Assembly (NCBI RefSeq): GCF_900635155.1
Contig: NZ_LR134002.1
Coordinates: forward strand, 2,046,001 to 2,110,000
Origin: Streptococcus sanguinis
Lineage (GTDB): Bacteria > Bacillota > Bacilli > Lactobacillales > Streptococcaceae
DNA: 64,000 nt
Direction: 5' to 3'
A program made the translations under genes and the position numbers. The notes under the pieces were generated by a model that worked only from the letters and a program-made list of their open reading frames with translations, had not been told where the DNA came from and ran no database searches. Shown one piece after another: positions 9,919 through 35,398 of the stretch; within the stretch, counting starts at the first letter, position 1; each line of letters opens with the position of its first letter.

Positions 9919-9953
9919 AAATAAGCTTTGCTAGGCTAGCAAAGCTTATTTTT
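9917..9953. terminator. Bidirectional terminator between rnjA and the AlkC-like gene
   Basis: The arms AAAATAAGCTTTGCTAG (9918-9934) and their exact complement (9936-9952) form a long A/T-flanked stem serving convergent genes. The minus-strand gene ends inside it at 9946. Confidence 0.85.
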
Positions 9954-10692: not shown

Positions 10693-11263
10693 GATTTTTA
10701 AATCCCCTTAACAGACTTCTCACTGCTTCTCTAACTTCTGCTTCTTCCTCTTTCTCAGCCAGAAAAAGAGACAACTCGTTCAAGGCGCCTGAAATCATAT
10801 GAGCTGCCATATCCAGATCAATAGAGATAAGTTTCCCTTCTTTAGATAAAATGTCTAATTGTTCTCTCAAATGAAAGAAAGAATTAGCCTCGTCCTGACG
10901 ACGCCACTCTTTCCACTCAACGATATTGGGACCATCAAGCAGGAGAATACGTTTATTTTCGGTCAAGGTCGCAAAACGAACAAAAGCAACACAGCCTTCC
11001 ACCAACTGCTCCCAAGAATCGTGTGCTTCCAGGGCATTTTTTTCTACATAAGACCCCAGTTCGGACTGAATTTGTGCCAGTACGGCGGTAAATAAAGTTT
11101 TCTTATTCCCGAAATGATGATAAAGTGCGCCTCTTGTCACTCCCAATTCATCTACAATTTCTTCCAAGGAAGTTTCTGCATAACCCTTTAAAGAAAAATG
11201 TTTCCGGGCGATAGCTAATATTTTCTTACTTGTCTCTAGAGAAGCCTGCTGCTTTTTATTCAT
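10676..11263 (-). CDS. TetR-family transcriptional regulator
   Basis: This is a 195-residue repressor with the TetR HTH at residues about 8-55 (ILAIARKHFSLKGYAETSLEEIVDELGVTRGALYHHFGNKKTLF) and a helical ligand-binding C-terminal domain. The ATG at 11263 is preferred over the upstream in-frame start because GGAG lies at normal spacing and the HTH begins where expected. It overlaps the VOC gene (ends 11256) and the AlkC-like gene. An inverted repeat in the operon promoter at 11706-11724 is the likely operator, giving autoregulation. Confidence 0.88.
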   Translation of the reverse strand: MNKKQQASLETSKKILAIARKHFSLKGYAETSLEEIVDELGVTRGALYHHFGNKKTLFTAVLAQIQSELGSYVEKNALEAHDSWEQLVEGCVAFVRFATLTENKRILLLDGPNIVEWKEWRRQDEANSFFHLREQLDILSKEGKLISIDLDMAAHMISGALNELSLFLAEKEEEAEVREAVRSLLRGFKNHGEKG

Positions 11264-11675
11264 CTTCACTCTCCAAATAATTTGCCGCAAACTCAGCGCT
11301 AGGTGGAATTACTTGAATTACATCAACCAAAACAGAACCCGGTGCTTCCACAATGAAATGGCACTGACCAAAATCTTCACTCTTAATAGGAAGAAGGAAC
11401 TCCATTTCTTCTTGCTGACGCAAGTCTTCATAAAAACAATCCACATTGTCAACTTCGATATTGATGATTAGGCCACTCGCCTTAGACTGGTAGGCTTGTG
11501 GCACTGTCCCATGCTTACTATCAATAAAAGCAAGCTCAAAACCACTCTCGATATTCTTTAAACTAATATACCAATCTGAACGGAAGATTTCCTGAAATTG
11601 GAAATGCTCAATGAAAAATTGTGCCGCTTGATGGACATCTTCGCTCATTAAAACGGGGTATAAACTGGTAATCAT
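11256..11675 (-). CDS. VOC-superfamily (glyoxalase/bleomycin-resistance-like) protein
   Basis: This 139-residue protein has the paired beta-alpha-beta-beta-beta layout of the vicinal oxygen chelate fold. The first module starts LYPVLMSEDVHQAAQFFIEHFQFQEIFRSDWYISL, and the second contains GLIINIEVDNVDCFYEDL and ends VEAPGSVLVDVIQ. Such proteins act as metal-dependent lyases or as antibiotic-binding proteins; the metal ligands are not clear here. It is the first gene of the operon with TetR and AlkC, so a role against toxic electrophiles or DNA-damaging compounds is a reasonable inference. AAAGGAG precedes the start. Confidence 0.8.
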   Translation of the reverse strand: MITSLYPVLMSEDVHQAAQFFIEHFQFQEIFRSDWYISLKNIESGFELAFIDSKHGTVPQAYQSKASGLIINIEVDNVDCFYEDLRQQEEMEFLLPIKSEDFGQCHFIVEAPGSVLVDVIQVIPPSAEFAANYLESEDE

Positions 11676-14061: not shown

Positions 14062-14586
14062 TTATTTTTTCTTTTCAAAGATGGCTCGCAGCCGATCTAT
14101 ATCAGAATTTACCAGAATCGCAACAAAGACTCCCATAAACGTTTCAAAGATTCTAGCAAAGACATACAGGATGGTATCTTCCGGCCGAATGGACAGGGTA
14201 ATAATCAGCATGGCAGATACTCCGCCAATGACTCCCGCCTTGTTGTTCATGGCGACATTGGTCATGATTGTCAGCATAGTACAAACCGGCACCAAAAGGA
14301 GGGTGACCCAATACTGCTCCTTAAAAACACTATTGGCAATGAAAAATAGCAGAGCGTAAAAACCACCAATGCTGTTTCCCAAGATTCGCGATGTCCCGAA
14401 GTGGACACTCTTATCAAAATCCTCACGAAGACTAAAGACTGCAGTCAAAGCACCGATTTGCAGGCCTTTCCAACCAAAAAGTCCAAAGAGCAGTAGGATG
14501 ATGAAGACAGCCAGACCGGTTTTAAAGGTACGCATGCCCAGACGAAATTTCGATTTATCAAACTTGTACTTATTGAAATAACTCAT
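14062..14586 (-). CDS. FUSC-like / aromatic acid exporter family membrane protein
   Basis: This 174-residue membrane protein has about four hydrophobic helices (GLAVFIILLLFGLFGW, the AALTAVFS and GGFYALLFFIANSV regions, YWVTLLLVPVCTMLTIMTNVAM, GVIGGVSAMLIITLSI). The RLGMRTFKTGLAVF start and IGALTAVFSLREDFDKSVHFGTSRILGNSIGG are typical of small FUSC/DUF939-type proteins. It lacks the large cytosolic domain of full aromatic-acid exporters. Function is unproven. AAGGAG precedes the start, and the glnRA promoter begins directly after its stop. Confidence 0.7.
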   Translation of the reverse strand: MSYFNKYKFDKSKFRLGMRTFKTGLAVFIILLLFGLFGWKGLQIGALTAVFSLREDFDKSVHFGTSRILGNSIGGFYALLFFIANSVFKEQYWVTLLLVPVCTMLTIMTNVAMNNKAGVIGGVSAMLIITLSIRPEDTILYVFARIFETFMGVFVAILVNSDIDRLRAIFEKKK

Positions 14587-14763
14587 TAGTCTCCTTCCAG
14601 GAAATCCTCCCTCTCTTCATTTTAACATATTTCGTCTCAAAAAAACTCTTTCTGCTCAGGACTTTTCCCGCACAAAGAAAAAGCCCTATCAGCTACCGCA
14701 TCAAGAGCTATCGACTATTTAAAAACTGAGACATTATCAGCCCCAGCCTCGTTGTTATTATCT

Positions 14764-15429
14764 TTAGTTTGGATAGATATAGGTAACGCCACCCATAAAT
14801 TCATTCGGGTTAAAGTAGCCACGATAGTTATTAATCTGCTTTTGGCGATTGTAGTTCGCTTCCAAGACTTGGATAGAGCTGTCGCTTTGCACATCTGTCA
14901 CATAAGCAACATGTCCGTATTCACCGCCATCCCAAACTGCAATAGCGCCTGCTACTGGGACATTTCCTGTTGCATAACCCTGAGCACCAGCATTGATCGC
15001 CCAAGTATTAGCATTGCCCCACCAGTTGCTTGCCCAAGGCGCCATTTCTTTCACACCCCAAGTACATTGACCGATTGGGTAAGAATTGCCATAATCAGTT
15101 GGCGTATTTAAGACAACATCTTCAGTATCAGATACCAAAGCAGCATCGCTTATCGCTTCATAAGCTGGAGCATTGTACGGATTGTAAGTCTGTGCCAAAG
15201 CAGTGCCATTTACTTGCAGCACATCCCCTGGATTAATCGTATCAAAAATTGATTTTCCATTATTGGCAGCAAGTTCGTAAGGATTCATCCCATTGGCGCT
15301 AGCAATGGCAAAAAAAGAGTCCCCATGCTGCACAACGTAAGAATCTGCATTGACAGCCTGAGCGCCGATTGTCGCCAAAAAAGCTGTAGAAGTTAAACCA
15401 AGAGTTGCTTTAGCAAATGCTTTTTTCAT
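14764..15429 (-). CDS. Secreted LysM-CHAP peptidoglycan hydrolase
   Basis: This is a 221-residue secreted protein. A signal peptide covers residues 1-28 (MKKAFAKATLGLTS to VNA). One LysM domain follows (YVVQHGDSFFAIASANGMNPYELAANNG and NPGDVLQV, residues about 31-75). A C-terminal CHAP amidase/endopeptidase domain starts near residue 112 with YPIGQCTWGVKEMAPW (catalytic Cys) and continues to GEYGHVAYVTDV (catalytic His). This is the architecture of streptococcal division or wall-remodelling hydrolases. GGAG lies upstream of the ATG. It may help cell separation; the exact bond cleaved cannot be read from sequence. Confidence 0.88.
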   Translation of the reverse strand: MKKAFAKATLGLTSTAFLATIGAQAVNADSYVVQHGDSFFAIASANGMNPYELAANNGKSIFDTINPGDVLQVNGTALAQTYNPYNAPAYEAISDAALVSDTEDVVLNTPTDYGNSYPIGQCTWGVKEMAPWASNWWGNANTWAINAGAQGYATGNVPVAGAIAVWDGGEYGHVAYVTDVQSDSSIQVLEANYNRQKQINNYRGYFNPNEFMGGVTYIYPN

Positions 15430-15601
15430 AACTGTATTTCTCCGTATAATTTGATGATAAAAAAATCATACCTCATTTACATGTCAGTTTTTTTAGAGTT
15501 ATGTTTTTGTCATGTTACAAATGATTTAGACTTTTGCTACATGAGATTTTGCAGTACTTTTAAAGATAAAAAGGCTAGGGAATCCCTAGCCTCATCTATT
15601 A

Positions 15602-18600
15602 TCAGTCTTCTTTACCTTTCAATTTTCCTAGACCTAAAGCACCAATAATGGCTGCTAAACCTAAATATGGCAGATAGACTGTATCTTTGGCTCCCGTTTC
15701 TGGCAGAAGAGAAACAGGAATCTTTTTAGCCACTGGAGTTGGGTTGGCTCTTCTCGGATCGTTTACATCCGAAACAATCAGATGCTGTGACTTAGGAGTG
15801 ACTGTTGTAACTGTATTTGAAGCATAGACCACACGATTGACGGTATTGATGTAGGTATTTTCAAAAGTACCCGCAGCAATCCGCTTCATCTGTAGATAGG
15901 TTTCAGCCTGAAAAGCTGAATCCAGAGAAATAGTCTCTAAGAATTCTTCCTTGAAACGAATAGAAATCAAGCCTTTCTCAAGATCAATATTCGCAGCTGT
16001 ATACTCAGTCAAATCTGTACCAGCCTTTATCACCTTACCATCTTTGAGCGTGATGTCTACTTTGGCAAAGGTTTTGTAAGCCCCCGTGTACTCATCGCCT
16101 CGTTGATCATAATCATCCACAAAGCTATAGTCTGTCAAATCTTCAGAGTGGTTAGCAGGGATTAAGCCGCCGATGAGACGGTAGTTAAGGTGCCGTCCCA
16201 AAGTCAGTTCCTTGCCATCCAAGTTCTCTGCACTTGTCGGATCCAAACTCAGGGTAACATCTTTTTCAGGACTGATTTTAGGAACATTGTTCACGACTAC
16301 GTCTGTCGCATAACCATTTCCAAAGTCAATTTGATAAGCCCGGTTCTCGAATTTACCGCCTGTGCGGCCCATTCCTTCTTTGACAGCCATAGGGTTTGTT
16401 ATCGTCAAAGACTTACCTGTTACGACATATTGGTCATAAAAGGCTTGGGCATCGTCTGCTGCAAAGAGTTGGAAAGAACCTTTAACAGTGATATTCGCCT
16501 TTTGAAGGAGCTCTCGAACTGCTGCAGGGGCTTTTTCAAGGCTCTCGTAGTGGGTCACTGTCACGCCTGCCACAGCTTTGCCATCCGCATCTACTAGCTT
16601 GACTAATTCCGGACGAAGTTCAAGTGCTTCTTCCGGATAGTCATCTACATAGTAGAAACCTTTTTGAATCGTGCTCTTAGATGACTTGTCACCCTTATAC
16701 TGATCCAAATCCCAAGTCAGCTCGTAGTAATTGGTCGAACCAGCCAAGACTTCCTTACCATCAATCACCAATCCTGCCTTATTTTTATTGACCTTGGTTG
16801 GCTTGATGTAATTATTGCTAGGATTATCTGAATCATCAGGCTTGCCTGGCGTAGTCACGCGTACTACGTTTGAGCGGACACCATAGGCATCATTGACTGT
16901 AAGGGTGAAATTATTGGTATAAGTCGCGCCATCGTTGAGCACTTGGCCGACTACTGTTGGAAAGAGCGTAGTAACTTCTTTGGTCGTATCAGCGTTATAA
17001 GTAGCTAGAGTTGCTGCAGTTGCCTTAAATGTTACTGTGTGACTAGCCTTATCATAGCTGACGTCAAAACCTGCACTAGCAGCTTTCGTTGCTTCTAAGT
17101 CAACTTCATAACCACTTGGCAACGGATCAGCAATGACAAAAGAAGTCGTCTCGCTGCGTCCAGCTGGAAGAGCTTCTGTCTTTAAGGCAAACTGAACGAC
17201 GGACTGCTTAGCTACAAGAGTCTTATCAATATTGGTGCCTTGGTCATTTTGAATTTCTTTATTAATCTGCGGTTGAGATTGCAAGAGATTATAATGATAA
17301 TGCACAGTCGGAGCTACGGGCGCTGCTGGCTCTTTTTGATAAACAGGCGCTGCTGGTAAGGTTGGCAGCGGGCTATAAGTTGGTTCTACCGGCTTATTAG
17401 GCTCTGGTGTATCTGGTGTAGGTGTTGGCGCTTCCGGCTCCTTCTCATAAGTCGGTGCTACCGGAGGTGTTGGCTCCTTTTCATAGGTCGGTTCTACCAC
17501 TGCTGGCCGAACAGTTTTTTCCACTTCATAGCTTGGCTCAGATGGCTTACTAGGCTCTGGTGTATCCGGTGTACGCGTCGGTGGCGTCGGATCTTTTTCA
17601 TAAGTCGGTGCTGCCGGAGGTGTTGGAAGAGCCTTCGGTGTTGGTGTAGTTGGAGCTGGATCCAAAGGCTTAAGCGCTTCTTCGCTTGGCACTGCAGGAG
17701 CTGTAGGAGCTACGGGCGCTTCCGGTTCTTCTACTGTGATGATTGGCAGATCATTCGCTCGAACATCACCATTAATCGCAAACCAAATATTTGGTTTCTT
17801 AGGAGCTAGTTTGTCAGCCCTACGTGGATCAGTAGCTTCTGGCTGGCCTAACACTTCAGAAGAGGAAATCGTTCCAATCGTCATGCTGTTGGTTGTACCA
17901 GAAATTTCCACCGCTCCTGCCCCATACCATGAGTTAGGAGCATCTGTAGTGTCCCAGCCTGAGTCTGGCTGAGCATTCTTATACATGGTAAAGCGAGATC
18001 CGCCAACTCCTTTTTTGAAGTTTTCAGACTCAGTCGCATAGATTTGGCCGTTCTTTTCACCAATAGATGAACCCGAAATCTTGTTGAAAGTTCCTGTATA
18101 ATCTTTGGCCATTTCGATAGAGTTAGCTTCACGGTTGAGGGAAGCCACGGACATCAAAGCCTGATCAAAATTAATAGGTTGGCCTTTATCATCATAAAAG
18201 ACAAATTCCGTCTTCACAAAGAGAGAGGTTGCATCTTCAAAATTTCCTGTATAAGCGGAAGCAAAAACTCCCATTGTCGGGTCTTTAAAAATACCTAACC
18301 AAGCCTTATCATTGCGGAATTGAGAGCTTGGATCAAGAGTATAAGTATAAACGATTTTAGAAACTTTTTTCCCTCGATAATAAGTTCCCTGAAGATTTGT
18401 ATAGGTTGCTGTTGCAGACTGACCGCGACTCAACAAAACAGAAGACCATTCAGTCGGCCCTTTACCGCTTGTTACGTTAGAACTATAGTCTGCATACTTG
18501 CCAACTGTACCAAAACTTTCCTGCTGGTTGGTCTGATAGTTGGCATTTTGAATGTCTGTTACTTTGAAGTTGTCCAACTGGAAGAGTTTCTTAGAAAACT

Positions 18601-25439: not shown

Positions 25440-26534
25440 TTATTTATCCAAACCTCTGACATATTGGTCGACTGCTAGGATGGCACCTGCAATGTCAGAA
25501 GCTGAAATCTCAAATGGCATCTGATGGATGGTTTCGCCCTCAATCGTCGCTTGCTGACCAACTTTGAGCAAATCTTCATAACTAGCATTTTCCAAATGCA
25601 TTTCTTTCAGAGTGGTCGGCATACCAATCTTTTGATAGAAGCGAATATATTTTTCCAATTCTTCTTTAGGTCTGTTTTCTAAGAAGAGTTGGGTCAAGGT
25701 TCCATAGGCAACTTTTTCACCGTGGGTCAGGTGATGAATATCGCCTGTGAGAGCTGTAAAGCCATTGTGGATGGCATGGGCTGCTGCTAAACCTCCGCTC
25801 TCAAAGCCGACGCCGCTGAGAAGGGTATTGGCTTCAATGATATTTTCCAGAGCTGGGGTCACAACTTTTGCTTCACAGGCTGCGATAGCCTGCAGGCCAT
25901 CTGCAAACAGTGTTTCTTCACACTTCTTCGCAATTGCTACACCAGCTAAGCTCTGTCTTTGTCCCAGCATGGTAGTGCCATTTTTCTGCTGGACAGCACG
26001 CGCTTCTACCCAAGTCGCTAAACCATCTGCAATCCCAGAAGCCAAAAGCCGTTTTGGCGCTCCAGCAATCACTTTCGTATCCACCAAGACAAGTTCTGGG
26101 TTTTTACTATAGAAAATGTATTTTTCAAAGGCGCCATCTTCTGTATAGATAACAGAAAGTGCTGAAGTTGGGGCATCCGTAGAGGCAATGGTTGGCGCAA
26201 TGACTACGGGACGACCTAGTATGTCTGCAATCGCCTTCGCACTGTCAATCGTTTTCCCACCGCCTAGACCAATAACCAAGTCTGCTCCGTCTTTTTCAGC
26301 CAGAGCAACGACCCGATCAATTTCAGCATCTGAAGCTTCTCCGTTAAAAGCGACATGCAGCACATGAAAACCATAACGAGTAAGGTAGTCATTGAATTTT
26401 TCCCCAATAATCTGGTAAACTACATCATCACAAAGCAAGACTGGATGGCTTCCTAATTGAAGAATCTGTTTTGCATTTTCAAACAGGGCATTTTCTCCCT
26501 GAATATAACGAGACGGGCTTGCAAAAATTCTCAT
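25440..26534 (-). CDS. gldA: Glycerol dehydrogenase family protein (GldA)
   Basis: This is a 364-residue iron/zinc-type NAD-dependent alcohol dehydrogenase. The NAD loop is IGLGGGKTIDSAKAIAD near residue 95, and metal-site histidines lie in GLAAAHAIHNGF and LTHGEKVAYGT. Classically it interconverts glycerol and dihydroxyacetone, but GldA also reduces hydroxyacetone to 1,2-propanediol. It is the last gene after the glycyl radical enzyme and the FSA aldolase, so reduction of the aldolase product is its likely job here. A 42-bp gap separates it from the aldolase gene. Confidence 0.93.
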   Translation of the reverse strand: MRIFASPSRYIQGENALFENAKQILQLGSHPVLLCDDVVYQIIGEKFNDYLTRYGFHVLHVAFNGEASDAEIDRVVALAEKDGADLVIGLGGGKTIDSAKAIADILGRPVVIAPTIASTDAPTSALSVIYTEDGAFEKYIFYSKNPELVLVDTKVIAGAPKRLLASGIADGLATWVEARAVQQKNGTTMLGQRQSLAGVAIAKKCEETLFADGLQAIAACEAKVVTPALENIIEANTLLSGVGFESGGLAAAHAIHNGFTALTGDIHHLTHGEKVAYGTLTQLFLENRPKEELEKYIRFYQKIGMPTTLKEMHLENASYEDLLKVGQQATIEGETIHQMPFEISASDIAGAILAVDQYVRGLDK

Positions 26535-26576
26535 AGAACACCTCTTTCTTTTTTATAGATAGAGCATTATATATGT

Positions 26577-27245
26577 TTAAATGTATTCCTGATTGTGAAT
26601 TGCTGACCAGTCAGCAGCAAAGTCATCCACTGCCTTAGAGATAGACGGCATGGCAAAAGCTGCTGCAAAGATATCTGGTCCTGCTGTAATGGCTTGGGCC
26701 CCATCAGCAAAAGCACGATTGATTTGGTCAACATTCTTAAAGGAAGCTGCCAATATTTTGCTGGCGGAATGATCCCGCTCAATTGCCTGAGCTAGCCGGC
26801 TAATCACAGCATCTGAATCAATATTGAGATTTTCCATGCGGTTATAGTAAGGAGCAAGATAGTCAGCCCCCGCTTCAATAGCTAATAGACCTTGAAAGGT
26901 CGTATAAATGGCTGTCGCTGTAATCTTGTAGCCTTCTGCTTTGAGAGTTTTGATAGCTGCCAGCCCAGCCGGTGTGACCGGAACTTTAATATAGACAGCA
27001 TCACCGCATTTTTTTCGAATTTCAGCGGCATCCTTCAAGATGCCCTCATAATCTTTAGCAACAACCTGCACATGGATAGATGGACCTTCTCCTATGATTT
27101 CCCGAACAGCGCGAATCCGTTCGAAGAAATCTATTTTCCCTTCTTTTTTTGCGATGGTCGGATTAGAAGTCACTCCCGCCAAGGGGAGGACTTCCGACCA
27201 TTTTTTTATCTCCTCTAAATTTAAGGTATCAAGCATGAATTCCAT
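26577..27245 (-). CDS. Fructose-6-phosphate aldolase-like protein (FSA/TalC family)
   Basis: This 222-residue TIM-barrel Schiff-base aldolase belongs to the short transaldolase subfamily. [36 protein letters not shown] matches the FsaA/TalC N-terminus. The lysine nucleophile is in [15 protein letters not shown] near residue 87. At about 220 residues it has FSA length, not that of full transaldolase. FSA enzymes cleave fructose 6-phosphate or 1-deoxyfructose 6-phosphate to glyceraldehyde 3-phosphate and a C3 ketone. Placement between the glycyl radical enzyme and gldA fits that reaction sequence. Confidence 0.9.
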
Positions 27246-27259
27246 AAATTGGACCTCTT

Positions 27260-29701
27260 TTACAACGTGTGCTCCGTACGTCCGATAATATCATCTTGCG
27301 TCGCCTTGGAAAGCACATTGAAGAAAGCAGAGTAGCCTGCAACGCGAACAATCAAATCGCGGTGTTTTTCAGGATGCTTCTGAGCATCAATCAAGGTTTC
27401 CCGAGAAACGACATTGTATTGGATATGATAGCCATGCAGACGGTTAAAGAATGTACGAAGCAAGGCAATTAGTTTCACTTTATCTTCTTCCTTAGACAGG
27501 GTTTGAGGATTCACTTTTTGATTGAGCAGAACGCCTCCTACGATTTCATCTGTCGGCAATTTGGAAACAGATTTTAATACAGAGGTCGGGCCGTTCTTGT
27601 CCATATTGTGGGATGGAGAGCAGCCTTCAGCGAGCGGTGTTCCAGCATTGCGGCCATCTGGTGTCGCCAAGGTACCGCGACCTTGACCTACATTTGCTGA
27701 AATAGAAGATGTTCCAGAGTAGCGGATACCGCCAATTGGACCGCGGCCATAGCGGGTATTTGGATATTTAGCGATTTCATCCACATAAATATCGTAAGCA
27801 TCTGTCACTAGCTTATCTGCGTAATCATCATCATTACCATATTTTGGTGCATCATGAATCAGCATCTCTTGAATTTCTTTACCACGCTCACCTGCATAGT
27901 CCGTTTCAAGTGCATGCCAGAGTTCAGCCGGAGTCAACCTGCCTTCTTCAAAGACTAGCTTCTTGACGGCCGCCAATGAGTCTGATAGATTGGCAATACC
28001 GACTTGAAGACCAGAAATATAGTCATAGACAGCTCCGCCCTCTTTCAAATGCTTACCGCGTCCGATACAATCATCTGTCAAAGCTGAGCAGAGGATATCC
28101 GGTACTTCTCTTTCGAGAGACAGGTCGATAGAATTTTCCACGATGACACTCATGCGGGTCAAATGACGCAAGGTCTTGTCCCAAGCCGTTTGCAGCTCAG
28201 CAAAGCTCTTCATGTCTTTAAAGTGACCGAAGCTTGGCGCAAAGCGCTTGCCAGATGCTGGATCAATTCCATCGTTCATAGTGATGAGGAGCACCTTAGG
28301 GAAGTTCATGTAGCTCATACCTGTACAACGGTAGCCCCATTTACCAGGCACAGCAGTTTCCACACAGCCGATAGCACTGTAGTCGTAAGCATCTTCTTCT
28401 AAAACGCCTTTTGCGATAAAGGACGGAATGATGATTTCATCATTATTGAAGGCTGGCATACCGAAACCAAGCTTCATGACTTCGATACACTCATTCATAA
28501 AGCGAGCATCTAGGCCTGCATGATAGCGAACGGTCAGATTCGGCTGAGGAAGATGAGTTTGAGCTACAGATTTCAAGACAAGGTAGGAAAGTGGGTTGAC
28601 TGCATCTCTCTTATCTCTCGTTTGGCCACCGATTGTCACATTTTGATAAAGCGGGCTACCCGCTGATGAGAATGTATGGGCCTGGCTGCGGACTTTATTA
28701 ATGGTAATCGTCTTAATCCAGAGATTGGTTAAGCGTTCTACAATGCTAGCCTCTGTCTCACGACCAGCTTCCAAATCTGCCTTGACATAAGGATACATGT
28801 ACTGATCAAAGCGTCCATAAGAGAGTGAATGTCCGTTGGACTCGATCTGAAGAATACACTGGATAAACCAAACAGACTGAACAGCTTCAGCAAAGGTTGA
28901 TGCTGGCTCGTACGGCACTTTAGAACAAATTCTAGCGATTTCTAAGAGCTCTTGACGGCGCTTAGGCTCTGCTTTTTCTGCCAACTGATTGGCCAAGGCC
29001 ACAAAACGCTCTGCATAAGCTTTCACAGCATCTACTACGATGAAAATGGAATCATAGAAGTGGTATTTGTCAAGACTAGCCGGATCGGTCAAATCCAAGG
29101 CTTCCTTAGCTGCGCGAGCTTTTTCTTCAAAACCTTTCAGTCCATAAGCCAAGAGTTTTTGATAGTTAACCGCCAAGTGGGCGTCCCCAGAGTTCATCTT
29201 TCCTTCCATGCCAAAGAAGCCAGTTTCCATATAAACCTGAACTTCTTCTGGAAGGAGAGCCCCTGCTCGAGCACGTAGGTTATTGTTTTCCCAGAAAGGA
29301 GCGATGCTGCGGAGCTGCTCTTTGGTTTCCTCTGTGATGTAGAAGACGTCTCCGTCCCGCTTCTCAAAAAGATCTAGTTCATTGAGTACAAACTCTAAAG
29401 TATACTCTGGGAAAATAGGCGCATCTTTATTAGATGAAGCCTGATTACCGACAATCATCGTTTCATCTTCGATATAAAGCGTCATATTTTCCAAAATCTC
29501 TTTGAGCATGTAAGCACGTTTCAACACATTTGGTTTTTCCTTATGCTCATCATAGGCCTTGGTAGCTAGGACAGCACGCTCTGCGTCAATATAGGGCTTT
29601 TTATTTAAAACATCTTCCCGATATTTATTCATCCGCTCTGTTAAGCTGCCAAAATAGTCTGTTTTTATTGTTGTTCTTTCTACTTCTTTTACTTGGATCA
29701 T
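27260..29701 (-). CDS. Glycyl radical enzyme, YbiW/PflD-like (probable anhydrohexitol-phosphate lyase)
   Basis: This 813-residue glycyl radical enzyme has the C-terminal loop [14 protein letters not shown] with the radical glycine at about 789. The active-site cysteine is Cys446 in [12 protein letters not shown]. True pyruvate formate-lyase has two adjacent cysteines; the Cys-Val-Glu here is the motif of dehydratase and lyase members, including E. coli YbiW and PflD. Those enzymes open 1,5-anhydroglucitol- or 1,5-anhydromannitol-6-phosphate to 1-deoxyfructose 6-phosphate. The adjacent FSA aldolase, GldA and PTS fit that pathway. Its own promoter lies in the 168-bp upstream gap. Databases would often name it formate acetyltransferase. 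Exact substrate is inferred. Confidence 0.85.
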
Positions 29702-29734
29702 TTGGTCACGACCTTTCTTATGAAATTTAATTTA

Positions 29735-29746
29735 TTTCTTTCGTAA
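29735..29746. promoter_or_regulatory. DeoR-like 12-mer downstream of the glycyl radical enzyme promoter
   Basis: TTTCTTTCGTAA closely matches TTTCATTCGTAA (34556-34567) and TTTTGTTTGTAA (31910-31921). It sits just downstream of the -10 box, a repressor position. Confidence 0.45.
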
Positions 29747-29748
29747 CT

Positions 29749-29777
29749 ATTGTAACATGCAAAATCCTAGAATTCAA
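29749..29777 (-). promoter_or_regulatory. Promoter of the glycyl radical enzyme gene
   Basis: On the minus strand TTGAAT (29777-29772), a 17-bp spacer and TACAAT (about 29754-29749), with an extended -10 TG. Confidence 0.65.
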
Positions 29778-29812
29778 TCATTTATAGGCGATTACAGAAT
29801 TAAAGATTTTTT

Positions 29813-29824
29813 GCACATTTGTGC
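29813..29824. promoter_or_regulatory. Upstream activator-like dyad GCACATTTGTGC (copy 1)
   Basis: A GCACA-TT-TGTGC dyad lies about 36 bp upstream of the -35 box of the glycyl radical enzyme promoter. An identical 12-mer with similar flanks lies at 31992-32003 upstream of the PTS promoter. Confidence 0.6.
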
Positions 29825-29869
29825 CAACTGAGCCAAGAAACTTTTGTGTTTATATTCATCAAAGTCAGA

Positions 29870-31171
29870 TTATTCTTCATTTTCCAATTCGTTATTGTAG
29901 GCAATCTTATCCTGAAACTTCACGAATGGGAAATAGACAAAGGCGGACATGGCTAGGATGACAATTTGAATGACTGCCCCTTGCCAGCCAGCGACCATAA
30001 AGCCAGAAATGATAGCCGGTGTACTCCAAGGCAAAGTCACACCTGCGAATGGTTGCATAAAGCCAACCGCAATTGCCATGTAGACAATCAAAGCAGCCAG
30101 AACCGGTACCAAAACAAATGGCAGGAACATAACTGGATTCATCACAATCGGAAAACCAAAGACAACTGGCTCATTGACATTAAAGATTGCCGGGAAAGCA
30201 GCAACTTTCCCCAGAGCCTTATACTGCTTAGACTTGGCAGCAAAGAGCATGGCTACGACCACTCCGAAAGTAATACCTGAGCCCGATAAGATAAGAAAGC
30301 TATCCAAAAATTGCTGGGTCACAATATGAGCACCTTGACTGACAGACAGCTTATCTGCAGCAAGCAGGGCCTTATTAGCATCCAGATTTGACAGCAGCAA
30401 GGCTGTTACGACACCATTGACAACGGACTGGCCGTGAACGCCGAACCACCATAAGAAAGAAATAAAGAAAGCAATACCGATAGCTCCATACAGAGAGCCT
30501 GTCAGACCTTGCAGAGGCACCTGAATGACATCGTAAATCATCTCAATAAAGGTACCGCCACCAGTCGCTATCTTGGCAATAATATAAACAAGCATTGACA
30601 GCAAGAAAATAACGAAAGCTGGAATCATGGCTTCAAACTGCTTGGCAATCGCCTGAGGAACCTGCTCTGGCATTTTGATGACAATATGCTTTTGAATGAA
30701 AATCGTATAGATACTGCCAACTGCCAAACCAATGAGAATGGCCCCAATGATTCCTTGACCGCCAAACCAGACCTTGGCAATCGCATCTCCAATCGCTTCA
30801 CCCTTTTCTGGTATGTAGGAGGATTTCAAAAGGATAAAGAAGGAAGAAAGAGACAGCACTCCTGCCGGCAGAGGCTCCACACCGCTGTTCTTGGCATAAG
30901 AATAGCCAATTGAAAAACAGGAAATCAGCCCCATAATGGCAAAGGTTCCTGAATAAACCTGCATAAACGGTTCAGTCCAGTCTGCTCCAAATACACCAGC
31001 AATGGCTTGATTTAGACCTTCAAACGGCAATTGCCCTACAATCAAGAATAGACTTCCCACAACTGTAAGAGGCAAAATTGCCAACATACCGTCTTTTAAG
31101 GCGATAATCCCGCGCATATTGACAAATTTCATAATCGGCGCAATGATTTTTTGAGTATCCACTTTAGACAT
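29870..31171 (-). CDS. PTS EIIC component, lactose/cellobiose family
   Basis: This 433-residue membrane permease of the Lac/cellobiose PTS family has about ten hydrophobic helices. It starts SKVDTQKIIAPIMKFVNMRGIIALKDGMLAILPLTVVGSLFLIV. The family signature regions WWFGVHGQSVVNGVV and FNVNEPVVFGFPIVMNPVMFLPF are present; the glutamate of NEPV is the substrate-binding residue. It follows EIIA and EIIB in the same operon. Given the enzymes encoded downstream, an anhydrohexitol or similar polyol is a better guess than a beta-glucoside; that is inference. Confidence 0.92.
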   Translation of the reverse strand: MSKVDTQKIIAPIMKFVNMRGIIALKDGMLAILPLTVVGSLFLIVGQLPFEGLNQAIAGVFGADWTEPFMQVYSGTFAIMGLISCFSIGYSYAKNSGVEPLPAGVLSLSSFFILLKSSYIPEKGEAIGDAIAKVWFGGQGIIGAILIGLAVGSIYTIFIQKHIVIKMPEQVPQAIAKQFEAMIPAFVIFLLSMLVYIIAKIATGGGTFIEMIYDVIQVPLQGLTGSLYGAIGIAFFISFLWWFGVHGQSVVNGVVTALLLSNLDANKALLAADKLSVSQGAHIVTQQFLDSFLILSGSGITFGVVVAMLFAAKSKQYKALGKVAAFPAIFNVNEPVVFGFPIVMNPVMFLPFVLVPVLAALIVYMAIAVGFMQPFAGVTLPWSTPAIISGFMVAGWQGAVIQIVILAMSAFVYFPFVKFQDKIAYNNELENEE

Positions 31172-31188
31172 GACGAAGCTCCTTGATT

Positions 31189-31500
31189 TTAATGTTTATC
31201 CAACAAACTAAAAGCGAGGTTTAGCACTTTTTTACCATCTAGCATACCGTAATCAGCCATCGGAATAACTGCAATCGGAGTATGGCAGCTGTCGCAAATA
31301 GCTGTAGATTTGTCTAGTGTATAGGCTACCTGCGGGCCCAATAAAGCGACATCCAGATCCGCTGCATAATCAGCCAGCTTAGCCTGAGAGTAGGCTTCAA
31401 TCTCAGCTTCCAGCCCTTTTTCAGCTGCAGCTATCTTCATATTGTTGACCAACATTCCTGTTGAAAAACCTGCCGCGCAGAACAAACCAATCTTAACCAT
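31189..31500 (-). CDS. PTS EIIB component, lactose/cellobiose family
   Basis: This 103-residue cytosolic phosphocarrier has its phosphorylated cysteine (Cys8) in MVKIGLFCAAGFSTGMLV. The ATG at 31500 was chosen because AGGAGG lies 8 nt upstream; an in-frame extension to 31524 would swallow that site. It lies between EIIA and EIIC, 17 bp before EIIC. Confidence 0.92.
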   Translation of the reverse strand: MVKIGLFCAAGFSTGMLVNNMKIAAAEKGLEAEIEAYSQAKLADYAADLDVALLGPQVAYTLDKSTAICDSCHTPIAVIPMADYGMLDGKKVLNLAFSLLDKH

Positions 31501-31520
31501 CTTTTCATCCTCCTGATGAT

Positions 31521-31844
31521 TCATTTTTTCCCTTGTAATTCTCTTCTCAAGTCGATGATTTCTTTGATGAGGTTAATCTCTGTAATGCTAGTCATCAAAT
31601 GATCTTGAGAATGAACAAACAGCGCTGTAATCTCTGTTTTCGTTCCTCCAGCTTCCTGAGCTAGGAACTTGGTCTGCAAGTTATGAGCCTCTAACAGCGC
31701 CTTATCTGCAAGCTTAATCTGCTCATCGCATTCTGAAAACTTACCATCTTTAGCTAGTGATAAAGCCTGATAAATATGCTGCTTGGCATCACCAGCGTCT
31801 AAGATAAGGCCCATGATAATTTGATCTGCTACAATCATTTCCAT
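31521..31844 (-). CDS. PTS EIIA component, lactose/cellobiose family
   Basis: This 107-residue helical, trimeric-type EIIA has its phosphorylated histidine (His78) in LFVHSQDHLMTSI. It is the first gene of the PTS unit in the catabolic island. Its promoter is at 31926-31954, with two 21-bp-spaced TTTTGTTTG repeats after the -10 box and a GCACATTTGTGC dyad upstream. Confidence 0.92.
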   Translation of the reverse strand: MEMIVADQIIMGLILDAGDAKQHIYQALSLAKDGKFSECDEQIKLADKALLEAHNLQTKFLAQEAGGTKTEITALFVHSQDHLMTSITEINLIKEIIDLRRELQGKK

Positions 31845-31888
31845 ATGTTACAACCGCTCCTATCTTTATAATTAACAAAAACCTGTTC

Positions 31889-31921
31889 TTTTGTTTGAAA
31901 GTGATTTATTTTTGTTTGTAA
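31889..31921. promoter_or_regulatory. Tandem DeoR-like sites in the PTS promoter
   Basis: TTTTGTTTG occurs at 31889-31897 and 31910-31918, exactly 21 bp (two helical turns) apart, directly downstream of the -10 box. The second is part of TTTTGTTTGTAA, related to the sites at 29735 and 34556. The DeoR protein at 33754 is the candidate binder. Confidence 0.5.
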
Positions 31922-31925
31922 CTAG

Positions 31926-31954
31926 AATGTATCACCTTTAGCTCAGTCCGTCAA
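31926..31954 (-). promoter_or_regulatory. Promoter of the PTS EIIA-EIIB-EIIC operon
   Basis: On the minus strand TTGACG (31954-31949), 17-bp spacer, TACATT (31931-31926). Confidence 0.65.
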
Positions 31955-31991
31955 TACATTATAGAACAAAATAGCTAATTTAAATTTTTTA

Positions 31992-32003
31992 GCACATTTG
32001 TGC
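31992..32003. promoter_or_regulatory. Upstream activator-like dyad GCACATTTGTGC (copy 2)
   Basis: This is identical to 29813-29824 and lies about 38 bp upstream of the -35 box of the PTS promoter, almost the same spacing as copy 1. Confidence 0.6.
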
Positions 32004-32100
32004 AAAAAGGAGCCTCCACAAAAAACAACTCCTATACAGCTGTATTCATCTGCGAATCAAAGGCACTCTATTAGATACGAGCGATAAGCAGATTCGACAC

Positions 32101-32129
32101 AAAAAAAGAAGCAGCAGCTACTTGCTTCT
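32101..32129 (-). terminator. Terminator after the membrane protein gene
   Basis: AGAAGCA and TGCTTCT form a stem followed by a seven-T run on the minus strand. Confidence 0.75.
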
Positions 32130-32172
32130 ACTTCCTCATATATGCTATTTTAAGAAACCGAAACTTATCTTT

Positions 32173-32664
32173 TTAAACAGCTTTCTCAATTTCCTTTGCT
32201 ATTTTACTTTTCCGCAATTTCCTATGGAAGATGTATTTCAATAAAACAGCAGGATTCAGACTGTAGGATAATTGCAATTTAAAATAATTAATCCACTCGA
32301 TGACAGCAAAAAAACAAATTGCTAAAGAGATTATGCCTGTGCAAAGTTCACTGTAATTTAAAATAATTATCAGGGCTCCCACACCCAGTAAAATAAGGTC
32401 TAAAATCTTTAGTATCTTGTAAATTTTGCCTGTATATATTTCAGCAAATCCTGGATTGGAAATCCTTTTTATCAAAATCCACCAGAAAACAGAGCCCTGT
32501 ATCAGAATAAAACTCAGTACAAACAAGGAGAAAGAAATAGAAATCAAAGCTCCAGTAGTAAAAATCCATTTTTTTAGCAGGAAAAAATTTATCCAAAATA
32601 CTAGCACAGCGACTAGCTCCCCTGTGGCTAAACTAGTCAATTTTTGTTTCATAGGCTTTTTCAA
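32173..32664 (-). CDS. Small membrane protein of unknown function
   Basis: This 163-residue protein has four strongly hydrophobic segments: LVAVLVFWINFFLL, GALISISFSLFVLSFILIQGSVFWWIL, ILDLILLGVGALIIIL and CTGIISLAICFFAVIEWINYF. The C-terminus is basic and cytosolic in prediction (IFHRKLRKSKIAKEIEKAV). I do not recognise the family. It sits inside the catabolic island between the SorC regulator and the PTS operon, on the same strand, with its own terminator. Nothing in the sequence links it to the pathway, and it may be an insertion relative to related loci. Confidence 0.7.
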   Translation of the reverse strand: MKKPMKQKLTSLATGELVAVLVFWINFFLLKKWIFTTGALISISFSLFVLSFILIQGSVFWWILIKRISNPGFAEIYTGKIYKILKILDLILLGVGALIIILNYSELCTGIISLAICFFAVIEWINYFKLQLSYSLNPAVLLKYIFHRKLRKSKIAKEIEKAV

Positions 32665-32765
32665 ATCAACAATCCACCTCCATACATAGCCGCTAATCCA
32701 CTATTAAAAAATAGAATCCCTAAATTCCGTCTTGAAAATCTCTTGCACCTGAGATTCCACTGACA

Positions 32766-33737
32766 TCAAGAAGTGAAGGAACTCCTATCTCCATCCAAGT
32801 CTAGCATTTTCAAAATAGTCGCTTCATCCGTAACTAAATGATTGACATAGCCAGCTCGCAACACCGCTAAGATAGCAGCAGATTTTTGACTGCCATAGGC
32901 AAAGGCTAGACTAAGCTGCACCTTTTTCAAATTTTCCAAAGAGATAGCAATCGTTCGATTTTGCAAATGCTGGTAGACCATCTCCCCTTTTTTATTAAAG
33001 AAGCGACAGCAGATTTCTCCGACAGCATCCTGACTCTCTAGAGCAAGAAAATCCTCTGAGGTCAGCATGTCCAGCCATTGGCGATTTCCCGTGTCAACCT
33101 GCCCTCCAATACCAACCACAGCCACATCCAGCTCCTGCCAGCTGCTTTTTAGATCTTCAAAATATTTAGAAGCTAAAATTCCATTTGTCAGCTGCTCATC
33201 TTCCTGAATAATCGTGGAATTTATAAAACGGCAGTCCCCATGGTATTTTCCAGCCATACTATAGATGAGCGTATTCACATGGTAACGTGCATGGATATGA
33301 CTGGGACCACCTGCCAAAGGAAAGAAATGGACATTTGTCAAATGCTTGCTGCTGGAGTGCTCTACTAAAAGGCTCAAGCTCTTGCCCCAAGAAAATCCCA
33401 CTTTATCATTGTCTTTAATAAGGCTGCGTAGCATACCTGCAGCAGCTTGAGCCAACCTCTCTTCCAGGTCTGCTGGAGATTCATCCACTAAATTACTGAC
33501 AATTTCGATTCCCTTGAGCCCATATTTTTCTTTTACATAGTTTTCCAAATGGAACAAGCGGGTATCAAAGTCTTCAATCTCAATCTTTACAATGCCCTCT
33601 TTTTTAGCTTCTGCCAGCATTCGGCTAATGGTGGTGCGATAAATCCCTGTCTCAGCCGCAATGTCAGACTGGCTTCTTTCTTCGATATAGTAGAGATAAG
33701 CAATTTTTGCCAATAGTTTTTTTCTTTCATTTTTCAT
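32766..33737 (-). CDS. SorC/DeoR-type sugar-binding transcriptional regulator
   Basis: This 323-residue regulator has an N-terminal HTH (YYIEERSQSDIAAETGIYRTTISRMLAEAKKEGIVKIEI, residues about 15-55). A C-terminal SorC sugar-binding domain contains DNDKVGFSWGKSLSLLVEH and FFPLAGGPSHIHARYHVNTLIYSMA. Such proteins bind phosphosugars and often activate catabolic operons. It is cotranscribed with the DeoR gene (16-bp gap). It is a candidate for binding the GCACATTTGTGC dyads; this is inference. Confidence 0.9.
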   Translation of the reverse strand: MKNERKKLLAKIAYLYYIEERSQSDIAAETGIYRTTISRMLAEAKKEGIVKIEIEDFDTRLFHLENYVKEKYGLKGIEIVSNLVDESPADLEERLAQAAAGMLRSLIKDNDKVGFSWGKSLSLLVEHSSSKHLTNVHFFPLAGGPSHIHARYHVNTLIYSMAGKYHGDCRFINSTIIQEDEQLTNGILASKYFEDLKSSWQELDVAVVGIGGQVDTGNRQWLDMLTSEDFLALESQDAVGEICCRFFNKKGEMVYQHLQNRTIAISLENLKKVQLSLAFAYGSQKSAAILAVLRAGYVNHLVTDEATILKMLDLDGDRSSFTS

Positions 33738-33753
33738 CTTATCTCCTTCTCTG

Positions 33754-34497
33754 CTAGATCAGAGTCAGCTTGATATCGGCAGCTTTCAAGCGCTCAACAG
33801 CCTCTTTAGGAATCGCCTTGTCAGTCACCACTTGGGCAATCTGCTTGAAGCCGAATCTCTTAACTATTCCTTTTCTGGTAAACTTGCTTGAGTCCGTCAA
33901 GACAATCATCTGGTCAGATGCCTCTGACATATACTGCACAACCTCACTCCGCATCAGATCCTTGCCTGTAAAGCCTAGATTTTCATCATAGCCATCTGTT
34001 CCGACAAAAGCATGTTCTACGTGAAAAAAGCGGATCATTTCCTTGAGAAGAGGCCCTACTGTCACTTGAGAATCTTTCTGAAATTCTCCGCCCAGTAAGA
34101 TAATTTTACAAGAATCAGTTTGTTTTATATAATCCGCAATAAAATAAGAATTGGTAATAATCTTGACATTCTTCTTCGTTCGGCAGATTTCCTCAGCTAG
34201 TAAGGCACAGGTCGAGCCTGATTCGATCATAATGGTTTCATTATCCTGAACGATTTTTGCTGCTTCCTGAGCAATCCGGCGCTTGGTATCATAATGAAAG
34301 GAAAGCCTGACATTCAGATCATCGCCGCTATTTAAAACAGCATAGCCATGCTCTCTGCGCAACAGACCTTTGGTTTCCAGCTTATCCAAGTCTTTGCGAA
34401 TCGTTACTTTGGACACTTTTAAGCGGTCAGACAAAGTATTGACATCGATTCGTTCAAATTCAGATACTAATTTAACAATTTCATCTAAACGTTCCAT
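33754..34497 (-). CDS. DeoR-family transcriptional regulator
   Basis: This 247-residue regulator has the DeoR wHTH at the N-terminus (LVSEFERIDVNTLSDRLKVSKVTIRKDLDKLETKGLLRREHGYAVL). The DeoR sugar-phosphate-sensing domain follows, with MIESGSTCALLAEEICR and FVGTDGYDENLGFTGKDLMRSEV. It diverges from the activase gene. The shared 124-bp region holds a TTTCATTCGTAA site related to sites in both operon promoters of the island, so it is a plausible local repressor responding to a sugar phosphate. Confidence 0.92.
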   Translation of the reverse strand: MERLDEIVKLVSEFERIDVNTLSDRLKVSKVTIRKDLDKLETKGLLRREHGYAVLNSGDDLNVRLSFHYDTKRRIAQEAAKIVQDNETIMIESGSTCALLAEEICRTKKNVKIITNSYFIADYIKQTDSCKIILLGGEFQKDSQVTVGPLLKEMIRFFHVEHAFVGTDGYDENLGFTGKDLMRSEVVQYMSEASDQMIVLTDSSKFTRKGIVKRFGFKQIAQVVTDKAIPKEAVERLKAADIKLTLI

Positions 34498-34555
34498 TCT
34501 ATCACCTCTGCTATTATTGTAACAAAAGACGTCTTAAAAATAAAATAAAAATAAC

Positions 34556-34567
34556 TTTCATTCGTAA
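34556..34567. promoter_or_regulatory. DeoR-like 12-mer in the deoR/activase divergent region
   Basis: TTTCATTCGTAA differs from 29735-29746 at one position. It abuts the -35 box of the activase promoter. Confidence 0.45.
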
Positions 34568-34596
34568 TTGTTTTTCTTTCTAAAATAAGTTATAAT
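34568..34596 (+). promoter_or_regulatory. Promoter of the glycyl radical activase gene
   Basis: TTGTTT (34568-34573), 17-bp spacer, perfect TATAAT (34591-34596), then AAAGGAGG and the ATG at 34622. Confidence 0.7.
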
Positions 34597-34621
34597 GATT
34601 GTATCCAAAGGAGGCCTGAGT

Positions 34622-35398
34622 ATGGAAACAACAAAAGGAATTATTTTCAACATCCAACATTTCAGTATTCATGATGGACCAGGGATTCGTACAACGGTTT
34701 TCCTCAAGGGCTGTCCTCTGCGCTGCCCTTGGTGCTCTAACCCAGAATCACAGCAATTCAGACCCGAGCCTATGCTGGATGCCACTACCAAAAAAAGCAT
34801 CACTATGGGGGAGGAAAGAAGTGTCGAGGAGATTATCAACGAAGTCCTAAAGGACAGAGATTTTTATGAAGAATCTGGCGGTGGCCTGACCTTATCTGGC
34901 GGAGAGATTTTCGCCCAGTTTGAATTTGCCAAGGCCATTCTCAAAGCCGCTAAGGAAAAAGGGATTCATACTGCTATCGAAACAACTGCCTTTGTAGAAC
35001 ATGAAAAATTCGTGGATCTCATCCAGTACGTTGATTTCATCTATACCGATCTGAAACACTATAACTCTGTCCACCACCGCAAGGTGACTGGAGTAAAAAA
35101 CGAATTAATTGTTCAGAATATCCACTACGCCTTCACTCATCAAAAGACGATTGTTCTGCGCATTCCTGTCATTCCAGATTTTAACGACTCTTTAGAAGAT
35201 GCGGAGCAGTTTGCGACCCTGTTTAATGAACTATCCATCGATCAAGTCCAGCTGCTTCCTTTCCATCAATTTGGCGAAAATAAATACAAATTACTCGGCC
35301 GAAAGTATGCCATGGAAGATGTCAAGGCCTTGCACCCCGAAGACTTATTTGAATACCAAGATGTCTTTTTGAAGCATGACATTAATTGTTATTTTTAG
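34622..35398 (+). CDS. Glycyl radical enzyme activating protein (radical SAM)
   Basis: This 258-residue radical SAM activase generates the glycyl radical on the partner enzyme. The CxxxCxxC cluster motif is CPLRCPWC at residues 31-38, after GPGIRTTVFLKG. LTLSGGEIFAQFEFA is the SAM-binding GGE segment. The ATG at 34622 is supported by AAAGGAGG. It has no room for the two-cluster ferredoxin-like insert between the radical SAM motif and GGE that many YbiY/PflC-type activases carry, so it looks like the compact PflA form. It is divergent from deoR and separated from its substrate enzyme by about 5 kb. Confidence 0.93.
   Translation: METTKGIIFNIQHFSIHDGPGIRTTVFLKGCPLRCPWCSNPESQQFRPEPMLDATTKKSITMGEERSVEEIINEVLKDRDFYEESGGGLTLSGGEIFAQFEFAKAILKAAKEKGIHTAIETTAFVEHEKFVDLIQYVDFIYTDLKHYNSVHHRKVTGVKNELIVQNIHYAFTHQKTIVLRIPVIPDFNDSLEDAEQFATLFNELSIDQVQLLPFHQFGENKYKLLGRKYAMEDVKALHPEDLFEYQDVFLKHDINCYF

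Follow-up and report, generated by a model that had tools for sequence, protein, structure and literature searches.

Bacteria phosphorylate 1,5-anhydroglucitol (1,5-AG, here AG) or 1,5-anhydromannitol (1,5-AM) by a phosphotransferase system (PTS), and the glycyl radical enzymes YbiW and PflD convert the 6-phosphates (AG6P and AM6P) to 1-deoxyfructose-6-phosphate (Ma et al., reported in PMC12441222). The radical cleavage needs strict anaerobiosis (PMC12441222). In Escherichia coli, the YbiW version comprises YbiW, its activase YbiY, the fructose-6-phosphate aldolase (FSA) FsaA, and GldA, with no PTS, gldA or regulator linked to ybiW. The PflD version (PflD, PflC, FrwCBD, FsaB and GldA) leads to the same product, and its PTS, enzyme, FSA and gldA are clustered. 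Ma et al. reportedly also found that FsaA and FsaB split 1-deoxyfructose-6-phosphate, with a GldA step to follow. Here we describe a gene cluster at positions 25440-35398 of a 64-kb stretch of Streptococcus sanguinis contig NZ_LR134002.1 (hereafter, the window), which is, in our judgment, quite likely a self-contained AG catabolic operon. The radical AG pathway itself is already known and its mechanism is not new; what is added is a complete, locally regulated streptococcal member with a linked PTS and regulators.

Gene calls were checked against NCBIfam and Pfam, which agreed, and all genes of the initial annotation lie where it had placed them (Table 1). The Lac-type PTS, FSA-type aldolase and GldA that it described around the glycyl radical enzyme were recovered by gene calls and profile models, as were the dedicated activase (TIGR02494) and the two regulators, one with a PF04198 sugar-binding domain and one matching PF00455 and PF08220. 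Its term “island” holds in so far as the cluster is real, but is loose as regards mobility, of which we saw no sign here: in the window and in three related loci (L032, L043, L075) the cluster adjoins leuS, so that nothing here supports its mobility. The window has in common with the E. coli YbiW system the enzyme clade, the CXE motif, the pocket signature, FSA, GldA and the activase. Unlike the E. coli ybiW locus, it also has the linked gldA, a Lac-type PTS, and SorC and DeoR regulators.

The glycyl radical enzyme carries the features of a YbiW-type lyase, namely a thiyl Cys in a CXE loop (Cys446-Val-Glu448) and the radical residue Gly789. The initial annotation was exact in reading Gly-Cys446-Val-Glu in place of Cys-Cys, and likewise in placing Gly789 in RVAGYS. 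This bears directly on the usual annotation, a second pyruvate formate-lyase for mixed-acid fermentation, which is stated in the literature (PMC3302838, PMC13262394). The sequence contradicts such an identity, which we regard as extremely improbable: Cys446 has no adjacent second Cys, the enzyme reaches 181 of the 994 bits required by the pyruvate formate-lyase model TIGR01255, and the FSA and PTS would be left unexplained. Moreover, a genuine Cys-Cys pyruvate formate-lyase (SCISCCVSP) exists elsewhere in the same 2.36-Mb genome, at ~2,023-2,025 kb, outside the window.

Sequence comparisons placed the enzyme with YbiW. Identity is 51% with E. coli YbiW and 36% with PflD; its closest named relative is S. 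sanguinis BCC31 (99%), and its three best sequence matches in the Protein Data Bank (PDB) are YbiW or YbiW-like, including 8id7, titled as YbiW with AG6P. In a tree of 82 rows, 76, including YbiW and the window enzyme, share one branch (SH-aLRT 100) apart from glycerol dehydratase (GD) and PflD; this was a quick LG+G4 tree with long-branch warnings that include YbiW and GD. For the residue analysis, 4 of 82 enzyme open reading frames (ORFs) shorter than 700 aa were left out, and four of the remaining 78, being second enzymes of another type, were not counted in the clade, leaving 74 members. Among the columns invariant (at least 97%) in these members and differing in PflD and GD, E. coli YbiW keeps 47 of 50; over the full set of 241 invariant columns, the numbers retained are 225 in YbiW, 165 in PflD and 164 in GD. 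The anhydrohexitol claim of the initial annotation can thus be narrowed to AG6P, since the enzyme falls in the YbiW (anhydroglucitol) clade and outside the PflD (anhydromannitol) clade. The same pathway could instead act mainly on AM6P, or on both epimers as PflD does, which we hold to be improbable. AG6P and AM6P yield one product (PMC12441222), so the FSA and GldA cannot tell them apart, and a streptococcal PflD-type enzyme does bind AM6P, judging from the title of PDB entry 8id0 (Streptococcus dysgalactiae PflD with 1,5-AM6P). However, that enzyme is only 35% identical to ours and, like E. coli PflD, belongs to a different clade. The window enzyme was not found in the PflD clade of the 82-row tree, and in its pocket His291, Ser346 and Gly461 stand against Ser, Phe and Asp in PflD. 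The PTS differs too: E. coli PflD adjoins FrwCBD, which we take to be a fructose-type PTS, and not a Lac-type one.

The pocket was equally informative with respect to B12-independent glycerol/propanediol dehydratases (1r8w, 5i2g, 9rcp), which share the fold and the CXE loop with the window enzyme, are 38-40% identical to it, and differ in substrate-pocket residues. GD H164, H281, S282 and E435 are common to both. By contrast, GD N156, F333 and D447, which we take to line the pocket, are replaced in the alignment by G167, S346 and G461, the same residues as in E. coli YbiW. Such dehydratase residues were what the initial annotation had said would speak against it, and the alignment came out in its favor. 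The place of F333 in the GD pocket is described in PMC7077986, as is HypD, in which a Ser occupying the space of GD Phe333 binds the substrate carboxylate; Ser346 at this position is therefore compatible with an anionic substrate. Overall, the enzyme has a high probability of being an AG6P lyase, as predicted from its sequence. Structure was less discriminating: in the fold comparison with the AF2 model (mean pLDDT 85.8), the Z scores of glycerol/propanediol dehydratase structures were level with those of YbiW types. This tie is one of several points that would favor a glycerol/propanediol dehydratase, or a glycerol-use operon as annotated (GldA, dihydroxyacetone, FSA) with an unrelated PTS. 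The operon is labeled as glycerol metabolism in two papers, extracts of S. pyogenes show GldA activity on glycerol (PMC10210942), and plasma induces dhaKLM and glpF as well (PMC12282319). We nonetheless consider this very improbable, given the replaced pocket residues, the lack of a second, diol-product dehydrogenase in the operon by NCBIfam and Pfam, the restriction of the PTS permease to enzyme-bearing genomes of the genus (below), and the failure of S. pyogenes to grow on glycerol (PMC10210942).

The remaining proteins of the cluster are consistent with the downstream steps. The aldolase is 37% identical to FsaA and contains HVQVV, APYYNR and LAASFKN, motifs that we read, by assumption, through FSA Gln59 and Tyr131. 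GldA is 50% identical to its E. coli namesake and retains ADGLATW, HAIHNG and HHLTHGEK, presumably the zinc ligands; it scores 410 bits against the equivalog model NF047954, below the cut-off of 700. A linked aldolase and a predicted hydroxyacetone reductase would supply what the pathway requires. The Lac-type EIIABC is complete, with Cys16 of EIIB as the presumed phospho-acceptor and His78/His82 of EIIA presumably acting in phosphotransfer; its EIIC is phylogenetically tied to the enzyme, although absent from 8 of 48 enzyme-positive genomes. The likely start of the activase, which is 36% identical to YbiY, is the second ATG (34622), preceded by AAAGGAGG; homologues of this activase are 258 aa long. 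It has an insert of 46 aa without Cys, where YbiY has 90 aa with six Cys, a Cys-rich insert that we assume to be a ferredoxin-like domain. Among the activases of related loci, 63 of 66 could be parsed; 27 had the short insert (43-53 aa, 0-2 Cys), among them every one from Streptococcus, Enterococcus and Carnobacteriaceae, and 36 had 87-102 aa with 3-9 Cys. The Cys-rich insert was therefore lost, or never acquired, across a whole set of partners. One short-form activase, L056_16729, adjoins a PflD-like enzyme.

Starting from the observed gene content, homology, clade, pocket residues, co-occurrence and operator architecture, we infer the substrate, the PTS specificity, and the sign and ligands of the regulators. 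In the proposed pathway, the Lac-type EIIABC would import and phosphorylate AG to AG6P. The divergently encoded activase would install the glycyl radical on the YbiW-type enzyme, which would open the ring of AG6P by radical C-O cleavage to give 1-deoxyfructose-6-phosphate. The FSA-type aldolase would then split this into glyceraldehyde-3-phosphate and hydroxyacetone, and GldA would reduce the latter to 1,2-propanediol. As one NADH from glyceraldehyde-3-phosphate dehydrogenase covers one GldA turnover, conversion of AG to pyruvate and 1,2-propanediol would be redox-neutral, with a net yield of about 1 ATP per AG by our own stoichiometry. The initial annotation had described much of this biochemistry, of which the YbiW and PflD cleavages are borne out by PMC12441222 and by the titles of 8id7 and 8id0; the FsaA/FsaB and GldA steps reportedly come from Ma et al. 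Alternatively, the enzyme could be a YbiW-like lyase for a different phosphorylated sugar or polyol whose product is also cleaved by the FSA. Substrate drift is possible at 51% identity, and the Lac-type PTS, like the ROK kinases described below, points simply to a phosphorylated hexose-like compound. We find such a substrate unlikely, as 47 of the 50 discriminating invariant residues are common to E. coli YbiW. FSA also needs a 1-deoxy- or 1-hydroxy-2-ketose, which leaves few alternative substrates.

To place AG catabolism in a genomic context, we surveyed 147 Streptococcus genomes, one per species, counting an enzyme of at least 84% identity as present. About a third (48) were positive, including two whose enzyme is fragmented or partial (G105, G108) and one with a single internal stop (G124); two further genomes hold just 35-36% paralogues. 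The aldolase was present in 47/48 enzyme-positive and 3/99 enzyme-negative genomes (Fisher p 1e-33, relatedness ignored), and EIIC in 40/48 and 0/99, respectively (p 2e-28, relatedness likewise ignored). One of the three aldolase-bearing negatives, G106, has a 36% enzyme ~1 kb from its aldolase; a 36-37% enzyme with an aldolase ~1 kb off characterizes G043 and G021 as well. The same genes thus travel together genus-wide, and the cluster is not a chance grouping. We then examined related loci, taking the best 80 of 587 from a scan of genome contigs and using 78 (L052 and L059 lacked an intact enzyme ORF). In these, 48 aldolases lay within 3.5 kb of the enzyme and none beyond. Together, co-occurrence in the genus and proximity in the loci indicate that the aldolase and PTS belong with the enzyme. 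Several observations weigh against a fixed gene set. Besides the eight EIIC-less positives, the best EIIC genome-wide is just 32-36% identical in S. bovimastitidis, S. catagoni and S. sp. ZJ373, where a different permease must act. Furthermore, in 30/78 loci the aldolase is missing from the 3.5 kb around the enzyme, and just 10 loci have a GldA ORF, so that other bacteria must dispose of hydroxyacetone in another way.

If the substrate is a 6-phosphorylated hexose-like compound, loci without a linked PTS should have a sugar kinase next to the enzyme. In 14/78 loci, a ROK kinase indeed maps no more than 3.5 kb from the enzyme, with two others farther off, both in L056 (Fisher p 4e-4), and in most of the 14 it is directly beside the enzyme or its aldolase. 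These loci come from Bacteroidota (L079, L081, L083, L085), Spirochaetota (L062, L064, L065), and Lachnospiraceae, Selenomonadaceae and unplaced Clostridia or bacteria (L025, L028, L040, L041, L042, L047, L077). No linked Lac-PTS was found in any of them, some of the contigs being short. Six of the 14 proteins (L028, L047, L065, L077, L079, L081) were checked by profile models and resemble glucokinase or beta-glucoside kinase, below curated cut-offs; the rest were assigned by BLAST clustering, and that of L025 has only 174 aa. The ROK label changes eight times on the tree, compared with a shuffled mean of 13.3, so the linkage was not inherited once. AG is phosphorylated promiscuously by hexokinases (PMC12965863), and the ROK loci are apparently a PTS-free version of the AG pathway. 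As a side observation, the genome of the window itself holds a ROK glucokinase match (L091, G000:C1:1242363-1243307) with one TAA inside, which may be just the gene end.

As for regulation, GCACA-NN-TGTGC is matched exactly at two places of the 64-kb window, 29813 and 31992, before the enzyme and the PTS operon. Of 11 loci whose SorC gene is intact, 10 (L006-L010, L015, L032, L035, L043, L071) have the palindrome, with at most one mismatch, ahead of the enzyme, starting 46-50 nt upstream of the best-scoring -35 (39 nt in L015). It also precedes EIIA in all seven of those loci tested for spacing, at 39 or 49-50 nt. In L014, whose SorC ORF was split in calling, the symmetric variant GCACG-NN-CGTGC precedes both enzyme and EIIA. 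No palindrome was found near the enzyme in L012, L013, L058, L060 and L068, which lack an intact SorC ORF; L011 and L057 have it though SorC is unlinked, in L057 at 59 nt. Spacings of 39, 49 and 59 nt differ by one helical turn, which fits an activator. A SorC-type activator would thus turn on the PTS and enzyme transcripts from GCACA-NN-TGTGC. The promoter-like sites behind the palindromes are argued from their position, and promoter-like matches over the whole region were not clearly above shuffles. TTACG/CGTAA-like elements occur in the enzyme start region and, in relatives too, in the activase-deoR spacer. They are compatible with the reported positions of PflR sites, upstream of SP0245, SP0246 and SP0251 (PMC3302838), and are probably DeoR sites, on which a DeoR-type repressor would act; the DeoR-family regulator is possibly PflR itself. 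Both regulators presumably sense a phosphorylated intermediate. In the eleventh SorC locus, Lactobacillus selangorensis L056, a YbiW-type and a PflD-like enzyme lie near each other (8896-11442 and 14360-16714), and the palindrome stands before the PflD-like one, which adjoins SorC. This arrangement suggests a common inducer, for example 1-deoxyfructose-6-phosphate.

Published data allowed us to compare this regulation with expression. In S. anginosus KH1, heat-treated human plasma with 0.5% glucose, compared with an artificial saliva medium with 0.25% glucose, induced EIIA 33-fold, EIIB 49-fold, EIIC 30-fold, the enzyme 146-fold, fsaA 104-fold and gldA 122-fold (PMC12282319). In the window and in S. 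intermedius L006, the corresponding genes follow the two palindromes. The list of genes induced at least 10-fold contains neither regulators nor an activase of this cluster (PMC12282319), as the operator map of these two loci predicts, although a transcripts-per-million filter could likewise remove them. Since added glucose was higher in the plasma medium, simple catabolite relief is unlikely; there are many other differences between the media, and induction extends to dhaKLM, glpF, glg, competence and other genes (PMC12282319). Blood contains AG, and a comparison of plasma with glandular and whole saliva included AG among its metabolites (PMC12849494), which supports the blood and saliva niche that the initial annotation had proposed. 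In S. pneumoniae, SP0245-SP0253 run in the same order as the window genes (two regulators, Lac-PTS, enzyme, aldolase, GldA) and were matched on that basis. No PTS substrate was found there and mixed-acid fermentation was proposed, SP0248-50 and one other PTS being the only ones of the pneumococcus to lack a known substrate (PMC3302838). The gldA-mipB-pflD-PTS operon of S. pyogenes M1UK, matched by gene order alone, likewise has a cellobiose-type PTS; it carries a stop codon in gldA, its sugar is stated as not known, and expression of the operon goes up when gldA has the stop or is deleted (PMC10210942). Given the gene order and PTS class, a backed-up intermediate acting as inducer would explain this rise. 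The S. suis ST1 island, in turn, was read as glycerol and pyruvate metabolism (PMC13262394). The plasma induction, the orphan pneumococcal PTS, the M1UK gldA change and the S. suis island all fit catabolism of AG, and are not linked to it in the available parts of the respective papers.

Taken together, we see about an even chance that in oral and invasive streptococci the operon is a dedicated scavenger of host AG. AG would then induce and feed one of the operons that plasma induces most strongly in S. anginosus, and would be the ligand of pneumococcal SP0248-50; its pathway would be cut short by the M1UK gldA stop, and the ROK loci of Bacteroidota, Spirochaetota and Clostridia would be the PTS-free version. 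This proposes a concrete substrate for an operon filed under pyruvate or glycerol metabolism, and brings several open annotations under one simple, experiment-sized question. If true, it could resolve the orphan pneumococcal PTS (PMC3302838), would re-read the M1UK gldA change (PMC10210942) and the S. suis ST1 island (PMC13262394), and would account for the 30-146-fold plasma induction in S. anginosus, listed without comment in the available section of that study (PMC12282319). AG is a clinical marker of glucose control and diabetes, measured in saliva and blood, which oral bacteria may then consume.

Table 1. Features of the cluster in the window, with positions counted from its first nucleotide
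Feature	Position	Strand	Description
gldA	25440..26534	-	364 aa; hydroxyacetone/glycerol dehydrogenase; NCBIfam NF006941 above cut-off
FSA-type aldolase	26577..27245	-	222 aa; NCBIfam NF009299 (fructose-6-phosphate aldolase) above cut-off
YbiW-type glycyl radical enzyme	27260..29701	-	813 aa; TIGR01774 above cut-off; PF01228, PF02901
Gly789 codon (RVAGYS)	27335..27337	-	predicted radical site; enzyme numbering
Cys446 codon (G-C-V-E)	28364..28366	-	predicted catalytic residue; enzyme numbering
TTACGAAAGAA	29736..29746	-	putative DeoR-type operator, tentatively assigned; just downstream of -10
Enzyme-operon promoter-like site	29749..29777	-	TTGAAT-17-TACAAT with TG; argued from position
Palindrome GCACA-TT-TGTGC	29813..29824	.	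putative SorC-type activator site; begins 47 nt upstream of enzyme -35
EIIC	29870..31171	-	Lac/cellobiose-family PTS permease; TIGR00410 above cut-off; PF02378
EIIB	31189..31524	-	PF02302; Cys16 in LFCAAGFSTG
EIIA	31521..31844	-	PF02255; His78/His82 in VHSQDHLM
PTS-operon promoter-like site	31926..31954	-	TTGACG-17-TACATT with TG; argued from position
Second palindrome GCACA-TT-TGTGC	31992..32003	.	putative SorC-type activator site; before PTS operon
SorC-type regulator	32766..33737	-	sugar-binding domain; PF04198
DeoR-family regulator	33754..34497	-	PF00455, PF08220
CTTTCATTCGTAATTG	34555..34570	.	putative DeoR-type operator, tentatively assigned; divergent promoter region; similar CAATTACGAACGAAAG-like elements in relatives
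Glycyl-radical activating enzyme (radical-SAM)	34622..35398 (ORF from 34595)	+	258 aa from likely start; CPLRCPWC; TIGR02494 above cut-off; divergent

Between SorC and EIIA lies a hydrophobic-looking ORF of 163 aa (32173-32664, minus strand) with no Pfam match; its sole match at E 1e-4 among the fetched loci is in S. sanguinis L043. In two of the related loci, L070 and L076, a YbiW-type enzyme has in its neighborhood a different type of glycyl radical enzyme and a Gfo/Idh/MocA oxidoreductase, and L070 additionally encodes an ABC transporter with an NMT1-like binding protein.

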